35,824 nucleotides of DNA from a virus. The notes under the pieces were generated by a model, which searched no databases, was not told the DNA's origin, and worked only from the letters and a program-made list of their open reading frames with translations. Numbering within the stretch: position 1 is the first letter of the stretch; each line of letters begins with the position of its first letter. Made by a program: the position numbers and the translations under genes. Of this stretch, positions 29,726 through 35,189 are shown one piece after another. The DNA is taken from IMG/VR virus record IMGVR_UViG_3300046820_000814, positions 1 to 35,824 of that record, one strand, 5' to 3'.

Positions 29726-30025
29726 ATGGAAGAATCCCGTGAAGGCATGTACTTTGACGGCTTCACATGGCGTTCACATGATGAAACCCCTGCTGAGCGT
29801 GAGACACGTACGGACGTAGTCTACGACTTATCAGATCGAGAACGTGAAGTTCTAGGCATGATGCCTAGCAAGATGACTGCTAAGCAAATGGCTGCTTCCT
29901 TGGGGATTAGCCATAGGACTGTTCAGTTCCACATGGACTCACTGTATTGGAAACTTGGATGCAGTGGTCGTGACGCTCGAACGCAAGCGTGTAACAAGGG
30001 GCGTAAATTAGGATATATTAAATAG
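29726..30025 (+). CDS. LuxR/GerE-type helix-turn-helix protein, 99 aa
   Basis: A transcription factor consisting almost only of a DNA-binding domain. LSDREREVLGMMPSKMTAKQ (residues 35-54) and ASLGISHRTVQFHMDSLYWKLG (57-78) fit the GerE domain: 'LT.RE.EVL' followed by 'eIA..L.is..TV..H...i..Kl'. There is no receiver or ligand-binding domain, only a 30-residue polar N-terminus. It is one of two plus-strand genes in the window, has its own promoter and terminator, and converges on ssb. It probably regulates phage or host transcription; the target is not visible. Confidence 0.85.
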   Translation: MEESREGMYFDGFTWRSHDETPAERETRTDVVYDLSDREREVLGMMPSKMTAKQMAASLGISHRTVQFHMDSLYWKLGCSGRDARTQACNKGRKLGYIK

Positions 30026-31684: not shown

Positions 31685-32143
31685 TTATCTACCTGTTGAT
31701 CCAAATCCTTTATCTCCTCGATTTGTCTCTCCGTCAAACAAGTCTCCTGTGTTGAGTTGGACAAGTTCTGCTTTGACAACGGGACTGAGCGATATCTGAG
31801 CAATTCGTGACCCCCTGCAAATGTGTTCTACGTTCTTCCCAAGATTCATCAAAATGACTTTAATTTCCCCTTGGTAGTCTTCATCGATAGTGCCTGGTGA
31901 GTTCAGCACAAATATTCCATACGATGCCGCTAAGCCACTGCGTGAACGTACCTGAAGTTCATATCCTTCTGGGATATTAATCTTCAATGCCGTTGGAATG
32001 ACAGCATATTCGCCGGGCTGAATGGCTACTGGCTTCTTCACAGCTGCGGAAATGTCAAAGCACGCCGCGTTATTCTTATACTCAGGTAGAGTTATCATGT
32101 ATGGCTCTATTCCATGAGGCATTACTTCGTAAACTAACTTCAT
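31685..32143 (-). CDS. dut: dUTPase (deoxyuridine triphosphate pyrophosphatase), 152 aa
   Basis: Hydrolyses dUTP to dUMP and pyrophosphate, keeping uracil out of DNA. All five trimeric dUTPase motifs are visible: motif 1 ACFDISAA (27-34), motif 2 RSRSGLA (66-72), motif 3 NSPGTIDEDYQGEI (81-94, catalytic D87 by comparison with E. coli), motif 4 GSRIAQ (111-116), motif 5 RGDKGFGSTGR (142-152). Length is normal. The ATG overlaps the methyltransferase stop as ATGA. Confidence 0.95.
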   Translation of the reverse strand: MKLVYEVMPHGIEPYMITLPEYKNNAACFDISAAVKKPVAIQPGEYAVIPTALKINIPEGYELQVRSRSGLAASYGIFVLNSPGTIDEDYQGEIKVILMNLGKNVEHICRGSRIAQISLSPVVKAELVQLNTGDLFDGETNRGDKGFGSTGR

Positions 32144-33594
32144 AAACTCTCTTTCTGTAACCTTTCACCAATCCACTTCATAACAGGCACTGCCATTGAG
32201 TTGCCTATTGCCTTGTATCTGCCTGAATCTGACTCCTTTCCCGGCGCCTTCGCCCATTCATCCGGCATTCCTTGTAAACGTTCACATTCGGTCGGCGTTA
32301 GACGCCTGACGACCATGTTCACGGATAGATATTGATCTTGGCTTGCCAATATTGTGAATGCTTTCCCCTCTTGCCCAAGGTAACCTTTGCCACCGCCAGC
32401 ACATCCACTGCGAATCTTAAACGTTGTAGGTTCTACCTTTAGTACAGCCGGCTGATTGTCGCCCATATCTGCACGTAACGTAGAACATACCGTGTCTAGC
32501 CCAGCAGGACCAGCGTTTCTGGCTATAGAACCCGGTTCAAATGCGTAGACTTCTGGTTGTACAACACCGTGCACGCCCGTAGCGTTCAACGTGTACATTG
32601 GCCCACCCACAGTAAAGCCATTACCGTTGCCACCATTGAGTGGCTGACGCCCTATCGTGTTCTCCGCTAAGGCTATTGGTTGTACTGCAAGGTTTGTGCT
32701 ACGGATGTCACCAAGATCAAACGTGTTTAAGGTGTTCGCAACTTCATCTTCGACCCACGTCTCATGGTCTTCAGTCGATTGAGCACGCCTCGACTTGCGA
32801 TATGCATGCTGTACAAGTGGAGTATTGCCTCCACCTGTACCCCATCGAGCTGCAACTGTAGGTGATTCATCAAGAGGACCTGTAACTCGGCTATCATTAG
32901 GATGGTTTTCATAGAGCACCGTGACTAAGTTGTATGCTTCGTCTCCGGCTGGTCCTCCTGCTCCTTTTGCCCACTTGCTGCTAACAGTGCCTGTCGTAGT
33001 AGCGGTGGGAGTGACTTTCCTCGTTTTTCGGCTCTCCGAAGGATGCCTTTGCACGCAGTCGGACTCAAAAAGTATTTTTCCGGCACGTCTTGGATCTCCT
33101 GAAGAATGTCCGATAAGGAAGATTCTTTGGCGTCTTTGGGGCACGCCGAAGTACTGAGCGTCCAAGACCCGGTAGGACCACCCATACCCGAGTTCTGAAA
33201 ACGCCCCGAGGATGGAGCCAAAAGCCCTTCCTCTGTCAATTGACAAGACACCGGGTACATTTTCCCAGACAACCCATTCGGGTCTAAGGAAATCAACCAT
33301 ACCAGCAAAGACCAAGGAGAGATTTCCCCGAGGGTCTTCCATTCCTTTTCGCATTCCCGCAACGGAGAATGCTTGACATGGTGTTCCTCCAACGAGAACG
33401 TCAACTGCTCCTCTTTCAATTCCCCACTCCTTGTATTTAGTCATGTCTCCGAAGTTCTTGACATCTGGAAACTTGCCCGCAAGTACTCGACATGGGTATG
33501 GTTCAATCTCGGAAAAGCCAACTGGAGTCCAACCTAACTCATGCCAGCCTAAACTAGCTGCTTCCACACCTGAACACACACTCAAATATCTCAC
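32140..33594 (-). CDS. DNA cytosine-5 methyltransferase with long repetitive target-recognition region, 484 aa
   Basis: Transfers methyl from S-adenosylmethionine to cytosine C5 in DNA. Motif I is SVCSGVEAASLGW (5-17), motif IV GGTPCQAFSVAG with catalytic C73, motif VI WENVPGV (110-116), motif VIII QRRQRIFLIG (153-162), motif IX RRLTPTECERLQGMP (430-444) and motif X GRYKAIGNSMAVPV (458-471). Between VIII and IX are about 270 residues, far longer than in M.HhaI-type enzymes, with several degenerate repeats. GTG start overlapping the SNase stop as GTGA. No restriction enzyme is adjacent, so it is an orphan, probably protecting phage DNA. Confidence 0.93.
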   Translation of the reverse strand: MRYLSVCSGVEAASLGWHELGWTPVGFSEIEPYPCRVLAGKFPDVKNFGDMTKYKEWGIERGAVDVLVGGTPCQAFSVAGMRKGMEDPRGNLSLVFAGMVDFLRPEWVVWENVPGVLSIDRGRAFGSILGAFSELGYGWSYRVLDAQYFGVPQRRQRIFLIGHSSGDPRRAGKILFESDCVQRHPSESRKTRKVTPTATTTGTVSSKWAKGAGGPAGDEAYNLVTVLYENHPNDSRVTGPLDESPTVAARWGTGGGNTPLVQHAYRKSRRAQSTEDHETWVEDEVANTLNTFDLGDIRSTNLAVQPIALAENTIGRQPLNGGNGNGFTVGGPMYTLNATGVHGVVQPEVYAFEPGSIARNAGPAGLDTVCSTLRADMGDNQPAVLKVEPTTFKIRSGCAGGGKGYLGQEGKAFTILASQDQYLSVNMVVRRLTPTECERLQGMPDEWAKAPGKESDSGRYKAIGNSMAVPVMKWIGERLQKESL

Positions 33595-33920
33595 TTAGTT
33601 CCGCCTTCGTATGGCTTACCGTGCCCTTCCTTGATGAGCATGTCGCTCAACAGGACGCCGTCAACCATAACCTCAGCCAGTATACGCCCATATTTATCCT
33701 GACGCTCAAATACTTTAATGCTAAGGCTTTTAGACTTTTGCATATTCTGGTCAGTGAATGCTTTGGCAAGAAGTCCTTCAGGAGTATTCTTTTCTGGTGA
33801 ATTGACGTGCATGACGCGCACGTGTTTATCAATTAAGTAGATGCCAAATCCCAAGTCAACGTTTGCAACGAATGTGTCACCATCGACAACTCGCAGGTAT
33901 TTAATCTTATACTCGTACAT
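33591..33920 (-). CDS. Staphylococcal-nuclease-like (SNc) protein, 109 aa
   Basis: Small OB-fold nuclease. VVDGDTFVANVD (residues 11-22) carries the acidic pair D13/D15; VRVMHVNSPE (34-43) gives R35 and E43, numbering coincidentally equal to staphylococcal nuclease; DKYGRILAEV (75-84) supplies the second Arg (R79); LIKEGHGKPYEGG is the usual C-terminal signature. The residue equivalent to Asp40, a calcium ligand in the model enzyme, is Asn here. No signal peptide, so it works inside the cell. ATG at 33920 shares TAATG with the upstream gene, and its stop overlaps the methyltransferase start. Confidence 0.85.
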   Translation of the reverse strand: MYEYKIKYLRVVDGDTFVANVDLGFGIYLIDKHVRVMHVNSPEKNTPEGLLAKAFTDQNMQKSKSLSIKVFERQDKYGRILAEVMVDGVLLSDMLIKEGHGKPYEGGTK

Positions 33921-34165
33921 TAATCTTCATCCTCTAGTTCGTCAGCACTGAGAGATATACGCTCGTAGGCAAACTGCACCAGCCCGTAGGCAACAATGTC
34001 ATCGCAGTTTCTTGCAAAGGATACACGAGTGCCTTGTGTAAACATACTCGACTCACGCATCAGGAGTACAACGTCAATCCCAGCAGCCCTAGCTTCCTTG
34101 ATAAGATCGGCAAACACATCTGAAACTTGGTCATAGGAACGTGGGATTTCTTCTCCGTCAATCAT
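33920..34165 (-). CDS. Hypothetical protein, 81 aa
   Basis: The product (MIDGEEIPRSYDQVSDVFAD, then LIKEARAAGIDVVLLMRESSMFTQG and a final ISLSADELEDED) looks like a small alpha/beta protein with an acidic tail. No family recognised. The start has a strong GAGGAGAGG, and lies just after the terminator-like hairpin, so transcription must start very close by or read through. Coupled by TAATG to the SNase-like gene. Confidence 0.65.
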   Translation of the reverse strand: MIDGEEIPRSYDQVSDVFADLIKEARAAGIDVVLLMRESSMFTQGTRVSFARNCDDIVAYGLVQFAYERISLSADELEDED

Positions 34166-34180
34166 AAACCTCTCCTCTAT

Positions 34181-34226
34181 AAAAGAAAGAACCACCCTGA
34201 CAGTGGCTGTATAAGGGTGGCTCTTT
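34181..34226 (-). terminator. Terminator or attenuator hairpin between early genes and DNA-metabolism operon
   Basis: Stem of 13 pairs, 34186-34198 with 34214-34226, containing a smaller ACAG/CTGT stem in its loop (34200-34210). In minus-strand RNA the pair at 34191/34221 is a G-U wobble, but in plus-strand RNA it would be an A-C mismatch. It is followed on the minus strand by CTTTTAT. Both points favour a minus-strand terminator. Confidence 0.7.
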
Positions 34227-34270
34227 CACTTGCGATGGTAGTTGTTGTTCTTCGCAATACTCACCTTGCG

Positions 34271-34690
34271 GTGGCGAAAACAGTATACAATGACGACAGA
34301 GCAATGAGTACAGCAATCAAAAAAGATCCGGCAAAGTGGAAGGGTATTGTTGCAAGTGTCAAGGCTGGCACTAAGGGTGGTGACCCTGGTGAGTGGTCTG
34401 CACGCAAAGCGCAACTTGCCACACAAAAGTACAAAGCATCTGGCGGTACATACCAAGGTCCTAAAAAAGCAGACAACAGCCTGTCAAAATGGTCAGACCA
34501 AAAGTGGCGCACTAGTGATAACACTCCATCCGAAGGCAAAAAACGGTACTTGCCAGATAAGGCATGGTCAGGTTTGTCTAGTGGCGAGAAAGCTGCAACT
34601 AACAAAGCAAAAGCCTCTGGTAATAAAGCCGGAAAACAATTCGTGGCTCAACCAAAGGCTATTGCACAGAAGACTGCAAAGTACCGCTAA
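34271..34690 (+). CDS. DUF5872-like small basic protein, 139 aa
   Basis: The body, AKWKGIVASVKAGTKGGDPG followed by EWSARKAQLATQKYKASGGTYQGPKK, then SLSKWSDQKWRTSDN, KKRYLPDKAWSGLSSGEKAA and GKQFVAQPKAIAQKTAKYR, resembles the DUF5872 family known from aquatic phages and large viruses, of unknown function. It is very basic and Lys/Ala/Ser-rich. Two starts are possible: GTG at 34271 (MAKTVYNDDRA...) or ATG at 34304 (MSTAIKKDP...). Neither has a strong ribosome binding site. It runs opposite to its neighbours and its end overlaps the end of the convergent early gene by 4 bases. I see no clear promoter. Confidence 0.7.
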   Translation: MAKTVYNDDRAMSTAIKKDPAKWKGIVASVKAGTKGGDPGEWSARKAQLATQKYKASGGTYQGPKKADNSLSKWSDQKWRTSDNTPSEGKKRYLPDKAWSGLSSGEKAATNKAKASGNKAGKQFVAQPKAIAQKTAKYR

Positions 34691-34932
34691 GGTTTATTTT
34701 TGATAAGCACCGTGCGTAAAGCATCTTTGCGTTTTAGGTTGTCCATGGCGTAACTAACGGCGTAGATTAATTCAGTAAACTCTGGGTTGTTAATCCTGCC
34801 GACAACTTCCCTCTGCCCATCTCGATCATAGACTAACTCAATGTACGGTTCGTCTGGGTTATCTTTGAAATGCTTATGTATAGCGGTAACCGCTAGGTAC
34901 ATATCGTCTTCAGTTGAAATCTTAAAGGTCAT
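34687..34932 (-). CDS. Hypothetical early-type protein, 81 aa
   Basis: The product starts MTFKISTEDDMYLAVTAIHKH and contains DEPYIELVYDRDGQREVVGR and a helical C-terminus. It looks like a small alpha/beta fold, with no recognised family. ATGA overlap with the upstream Tad2-like gene and a GGAGG seven bases before the ATG. The stop overlaps the convergent plus-strand gene by 4 bases. Confidence 0.68.
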   Translation of the reverse strand: MTFKISTEDDMYLAVTAIHKHFKDNPDEPYIELVYDRDGQREVVGRINNPEFTELIYAVSYAMDNLKRKDALRTVLIKNKP

Positions 34933-35189
34933 TCCACTACCTCCTTTTTGTTGGAGACAACAATATGGTTTGCTTCGTCTTCCCACTCATCTACTTGCCA
35001 GTCATCAGCTGCTAGGTCAGATCCACGTAAAGGAGCAAGATGACACAAAACATGAAAGTCAAACTCTACTCTAGCTTCAGAAAACATATTCCAGTCATCT
35101 TCGTAGTATATAAAGTGACCGTCTTGCCACCCTTTACGGTAGACAGGTAACCCACTCAGTAAGTCGTTCAGCACCTCAGCAAATGTCAT
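34929..35189 (-). CDS. DUF2829/Tad2-like protein, candidate Thoeris inhibitor, 86 aa
   Basis: The N-terminus MTFAEVLNDLLSGLPVYRKGW (F3, G13, R18, G20, W21) follows the DUF2829 pattern 'M.F..AL..l..G..V.R.gW', and the C-terminal part APLRGSDLAADDWQV (S57-V66) follows its 'sDllAeDWeV' ending. DUF2829 proteins include Tad2, which sequesters the cyclic ADP-ribose signal of the Thoeris anti-phage system. Length (86) fits. It lies in a run of tiny overlapping early-type genes, where phages often keep anti-defence genes. The middle is shorter and more divergent than usual. Family match is from memory; function is inference. Overlaps its upstream neighbour by 14 bases. Confidence 0.62.
   Translation of the reverse strand: MTFAEVLNDLLSGLPVYRKGWQDGHFIYYEDDWNMFSEARVEFDFHVLCHLAPLRGSDLAADDWQVDEWEDEANHIVVSNKKEVVE

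Follow-up and report, generated by a model that had tools for sequence, protein, structure and literature searches.

The closest described relatives of the protein studied here are the Tad2 proteins of phage SPO1 (Gp34.65; PDB 8sme and 8smf) and ModTad2 (9eib), together with AcrIIA7 (8kbi and 9kzr), which belongs to the same PF11195 superfamily. According to a review, rather than to the coordinates themselves, the gcADPR pocket of Tad2 is formed by the β1–β2, β3–β4 and β4–α3 loops, strand β4 and helix α3, and the dimer interface lies at α2 and β2 (PMC12043709). Ligands differ within the family, SPO1 Tad2 binding gcADPR and MoTad2 binding His-ADPR (PMC13299392). PF11195 genes can also lie side by side. 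Phage SpaA1 has two adjacent PF11195 (DUF2829) genes, P60 and P61, and the Lactobacillus phages Semele, Bacchae and Iacchus carry rows of short PF11195 modules, three to six per phage.

We analysed a protein, labelled P0001, encoded in a 35,824-nt stretch of viral DNA (IMG/VR record IMGVR_UViG_3300046820_000814; hereafter the window). A sequence-only reading had proposed it as a Tad2-like anti-Thoeris protein in an early gene run at the right end. The candidate shares with SPO1 Tad2 and ModTad2 the fold core (α1, β1, β2 and α3/β5), the residues F3, G13, V16, R18, G20 and W21, a D..xDW motif, the size class and a place in an operon of small genes. In contrast to them it lacks the NGK loop, the MKTAD..VPWLASQTD strands and the α2/insert, and the ligand-binding and dimer segments are not conserved. 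As judged from its sequence, the candidate is not a standard Tad2 but a stripped-down relative that lacks the known signal-binding parts. It likewise differs from SpaA1 P61, which is of the canonical type with a WLASQTD motif.

The candidate ORF is intact on the minus strand, running from an ATG at 35189–35187, with a Shine-Dalgarno-like GGAAG upstream, to a TGA at 34931–34929. Six orthologues with about 70% identity are found on six other IMG/VR contigs. The residues on which the sequence-only reading had relied (F3, R18, G20, W21 and SDLAADDW) are all present in the candidate as claimed, and F3, R18, G20, W21 and the D..A-DDW residues are kept in the candidate and the six orthologues, nearly all of them invariant. 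Pairwise dN/dS is 0.07–0.44 overall, with values of 0.29–0.44 between the candidate and its orthologues and 0.07–0.25 among the orthologues. The candidate is a real gene under purifying selection. It might be suspected of being a decaying array relic without present function, since this virus has one module where its relatives, described below, have two to four; the intact frame, the Shine-Dalgarno-like sequence and the dN/dS values all speak against this very improbable explanation, which is largely excluded because of the purifying selection.

Table 1. The candidate gene and the genes of its overlapping operon (window coordinates).
Feature	Length	Coordinates	Strand	Evidence
Gene1, first gene of the overlapping operon	~77 aa	35463..35696	(-)	ORF and 4-nt overlap with gene2
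Gene2, putative small helix-turn-helix-type protein (Recombinase/resolvase-like)	96 aa	35176..35466	(-)	Sub-threshold matches of homologues
Candidate, minimal Tad2-fold (PF11195) protein	86 aa	34929..35189	(-)	Pfam, six orthologues, AlphaFold, Foldseek
Gene4, conserved downstream partner of the candidate	81 aa	34687..34932	(-)	Homologues in L003–L007

The placement at the right end did not hold up. The right end of the window marks no more than the end of a contig; a longer one of 62 kb (L002/G001), 100% identical to the window over 6.9 kb at that end, extends past it, and because the window is a fragment of this longer sequence its "right end" has no biological meaning. Past the window, in the same virus, an intergenic element of about 140–170 nt recurs eight times (L002:590-5330). 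In seven of the eight copies an intrinsic-terminator-like hairpin precedes about 100 conserved nucleotides (CCACGCTAGTA...CTACATAA.CCTCGCAGGTATGGGTTGGCTATAGTTGG...TGTAC). Between the copies lie single small ORFs, oriented opposite to the candidate operon; the element has no Rfam match.

The Tad2-like assignment held in a profile search: the candidate scores 29.2 bits against PF11195 "Tad2-like" (E 1.4e-6; profile positions 1–72 of 73), above the curated gathering cut-off of 25 bits. It is the one PF11195 match in the whole virus record, and all six orthologues also exceed the cut-off. PDB sequence matches were weak when the query was the candidate and its orthologues only. A module profile was built from 21 modules (three candidate orthologues and 18 other members of the arrays described below) and included no canonical Tad2. 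Searched against PDB sequences, this profile gave seven matches (E 6e-9 to 6e-6), and all seven are Tad2 or AcrIIA7 sequences: AcrIIA7, 8kbi "inhibitor of type II CRISPR-Cas", SPO1 Tad2, Myroides Tad2 and SptTad2; nothing else scored below E 0.2. A modules-only HMM recovered 78 of 80 canonical loci and none of 3378 reversed ORFs.

The best PDB match of the module profile is AcrIIA7 (9kzr and 8kbi; E 6e-9), with both terminal motifs matching. This is consistent with an AcrIIA7-like protein binder that would directly inhibit a CRISPR effector or another defence protein rather than capture a small molecule. AcrIIA7 itself, however, is a long canonical type with a long insertion and the ASQTD motif, both of which the candidate lacks, and the homology is at superfamily level; we consider such a function quite improbable.

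Aligned with hhalign against canonical Tad2, the candidate is covered over residues 1–32 only, and homology of its middle therefore rests on the profile and the fold rather than on direct alignment. GFP had come up at the top of the PDB sequence matches and was rejected, as these matches were weak, repeated and local and were gone with the module profile. Searches with tblastn against annotated phages, using the candidate, a generic short probe, an orthologue and one module, returned nothing useful. A scan of genome contigs gave two short matches only, and in neither genome does PF11195 score at E ≤0.01. Neither the candidate nor SPO1 Tad2 is recognised by any NCBIfam model.

The anticipated structural match to Tad2 was found. 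With a 62-row alignment, AlphaFold modelled the candidate at a pLDDT of 76 (about 90 over residues 1–40), as against 48.6 with only seven close orthologues. The model has a helix (3–11), three strands (16–18, 25–30 and 35–40), a second helix (56–60) and a short strand (64–66), with residues 72–86 disordered. In Foldseek searches of the PDB, ranks 1–17 are all Tad2 proteins (SPO1 and Myroides; probability 1.00, TM about 0.6), and the first non-Tad2 match appears at E 1.8. Among viral models the matches are Tad2-like/DUF2829 proteins; one of them, 60 aa long and from a Klebsiella phage, reaches a target TM of 0.87. The fold match is supportive but not independent of sequence homology, because the AlphaFold alignment contained canonical rows. 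The model supports placing the candidate in the Tad2 fold and family.

Having compared the candidate with canonical Tad2 over the 35 columns whose conservation in the latter is at least 80%, we found that the scaffold is kept: F3, L10, G13, V16, R18, G20, W21, D58, D63 and W64, the last three corresponding to canonical D76, D81 and W82. Four of five conserved positions are retained in β1, and one of four in each of two loops. The middle is divergent, as had been claimed: none of the ten conserved β3/β4 positions (0/5 in each strand) is kept while the terminal signatures are, and with them the MKTAD..VPWLASQTD signature and its invariant W70 are missing. The A-S-Q of the β4–α3 loop is absent, and the N22-G23-K24 of the β1–β2 loop is present in none of the seven orthologues, candidate included. 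The model has no helix between residues 30 and 56, where the α2/insert between β2 and β3 would lie, and the span from GW to DDW measures 45 aa, where canonical Tad2 has no fewer than 49 and most often 64. The other array modules likewise keep scaffold residues and lose those of the pocket segments.

The segments changed in the candidate are the ones responsible for recognising the ligand and for part of the assembly, which argues against a standard Thoeris sponge. Loss of the ligand pocket had been named beforehand as grounds for abandoning the anti-Thoeris reading, and the loss of the canonical pocket residues weakens it. What stands of that reading is the homology to Tad2, seen by Pfam, by the PDB profile search and in the fold; the anti-Thoeris function is unsupported, as the pocket segments are not conserved. 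A genuine Tad2, that is a tetrameric sponge for the Thoeris signals gcADPR or His-ADPR, would fit the family membership, the fold and the retention of W21, R18 and D58, and the ligand does vary among known members. We nevertheless regard it as improbable, given the missing NGK, β3, β4 with W70 and ASQ, the missing dimer-interface α2/insert, the short GW–DDW span and a position outside the clade of SPO1 Tad2 and ModTad2. In our tree the canonical clade (SPO1 and Myroides Tad2/ModTad2) is separate from the candidate clade with support of 100/99, although an AU test did not reject a joint clade of the candidate with characterised Tad2 (p-AU 0.159); the deeper branching order is left open because of few columns and long branches. 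The candidate may instead have another ligand, as the characterised members of the family already differ in theirs.

The relatives of this virus carry the candidate's orthologue in tandem arrays. We searched the orthologues' contigs with PF11195, followed by ORF analysis and an HMM scan, and found that all six have two to four adjacent, strongly diverged Tad2-like genes, the orthologue counted. The window virus has a single module; a second was sought in the window and in the examined parts of the 62-kb contig, and none was found there. When the search was extended outward from two other modules, the number of contigs with two or more adjacent modules rose to 22 (L003-L008, L107, L109-L119, L121, L122, L124 and L125). 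A few of these may represent one virus recovered from several samples, and the figure is not an estimate of frequency, because the contigs were found by homology to modules; the six of six is less biased. Pfam alone gives 2–7 PF11195 matches in each of ten array records. The longest runs are six contiguous, overlapping module genes, in L111 and in L122. In L121:3689-4237 and L122:1692-2567, single chains apparently hold two Tad2-like modules (by eye), one module being only ~45 aa. Composition varies between close relatives, as with a module that follows the candidate orthologue in L003 and L007 and is absent in L004. Such variability, in tandem, diverged genes that differ between close relatives, is as expected of accessory arms-race genes.

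A cultured phage has an independent array. Lactobacillus phage Semele (host L. plantarum) carries six tandem PF11195 genes in 3 kb (MG765279 113015-116093; L134:1516-4594), all annotated "hypothetical protein"; Bacchae has four PF11195 genes, Iacchus three and Lenus two. The Semele modules differ from the candidate in carrying C-terminal extensions of their own; no helix-turn-helix (HTH) fusion was seen among them, and they are not orthologous to it. Unidentified paralogous families of hypothetical proteins are mentioned in the Semele genome paper, whose text does not contain the term DUF2829 (PMC6669764). We found no paper describing tandem PF11195 arrays.

In the window, the overlapping operon noted earlier around the candidate was borne out: four minus-strand genes overlap by 4 nt (gene1/gene2), 14 nt (gene2/candidate) and 4 nt (candidate/gene4, ATGA), with purine-rich Shine-Dalgarno-like stretches upstream. 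The candidate's three neighbours had been put forward as anti-defence candidates by association, which stands for them unequally. Gene4 has homologues of 61–91% identity adjoining the candidate's orthologue or its array in five relatives. Gene2, without a Pfam match of its own, has homologues in L123 and L005 whose sub-threshold Recombinase/HTH matches suggest that it is an HTH-type protein; the L123 homologue lies directly upstream of, and overlaps, a Tad2-like module of another class. No family was found for gene1, and no independent anti-defence evidence for any of the neighbours.

Several other ORFs in the window were recorded. A LuxR-type GerE DNA-binding domain (49 bits) occurs in a 99-aa protein whose gene lies at 29726-30025 (+), opposite to most surrounding genes. 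At 34127-34690 (+), amid minus-strand genes, an ORF matches PHROG 14910 in its C-terminal part (E 7e-32) and PHROG 17747 in its middle (E 2e-13); its true start is probably internal, because the frame overlaps a neighbouring minus-strand gene. A 484-aa ORF at 32140-33594 (-), with the motif TPCQAFSVAG, looks like a C5 cytosine methyltransferase and is adjoined by an SNase-type nuclease (33591-33920), and 31685-32143 holds a dUTPase-like ORF (by eye).

HTH domains are also part of the arrays themselves. In 20 of the 22 arrays the first or second gene encodes a longer member with an N-terminal extension, and eight of nine extensions tested have HTH-type Pfam matches, three of them above threshold. 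An Acr/Aca-type operon would have an HTH protein in it or fused to it; in relatives the HTH is fused to a module, and in the window gene2, going by the sub-threshold matches of its homologues, may supply one. HTH proteins regulate anti-CRISPR operons, and in AcrIIA1 a fused domain does so. The fusions are compatible with a purely regulatory role too. The strongest rival to a counter-defence function is a phage-internal regulatory or protein-interaction domain, in which HTH-fused members would be transcription regulators and stand-alone members would modulate them by hetero-oligomerising. The HTH-type N-terminus in one member per array, the HTH-type gene beside a Tad2-like module in both the window and L123, and the lost pocket residues would all fit this. 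We hold it to be unlikely, however, as every member of the fold characterised so far inhibits immunity (the Tad2 and AcrIIA7 entries of the PDB), array composition differs between close relatives, which is unusual for core regulators, and HTH fusion fits autoregulated counter-defence proteins too.

Our preferred reading, to which we give about an even chance, is that the candidate is a counter-defence binder with a changed ligand or target, from a fast-diversifying array family. It would be a minimal Tad2-fold binding module, composed of an N-terminal helix, a small β-sheet and a C-terminal D-x-x-x-DDW helix/strand, of a family that appears to diversify fast in phages, usually as tandem arrays. 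It would work by binding rather than catalysis, capturing a molecule of the host's defence, either a nucleotide second messenger or a protein, that is not among the canonical Tad2 ligands. The small-gene operon would co-produce the candidate and the HTH protein, which in relatives is fused to a Tad2-like module and which probably regulates the operon and with it its own expression. More tentatively, phages may hold tandem sets of minimal Tad2-fold modules, in which each module is specialised for its own signal or protein of host defence and an HTH-fused member regulates the array. The gene in the window would then be the one member common to seven related contigs, and the Tad2 sponges a single specialised branch within a wider family of binders.

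The module family is a larger finding than the single candidate gene. PF11195-based annotation will call these short modules anti-Thoeris, because PF11195 is now labelled "Thoeris anti-defense", though the pocket signature is missing. On present sequence comparisons, the arrays point to an undescribed family, probably of counter-defence modules rather than of standard anti-Thoeris proteins, and their tandem arrangement suggests that they have diversified to meet many targets. This is open to direct test in the Semele array, which belongs to a cultured Lactobacillus phage. Should the modules bind new defence signals, they would be a source of probes for second messengers not yet known.
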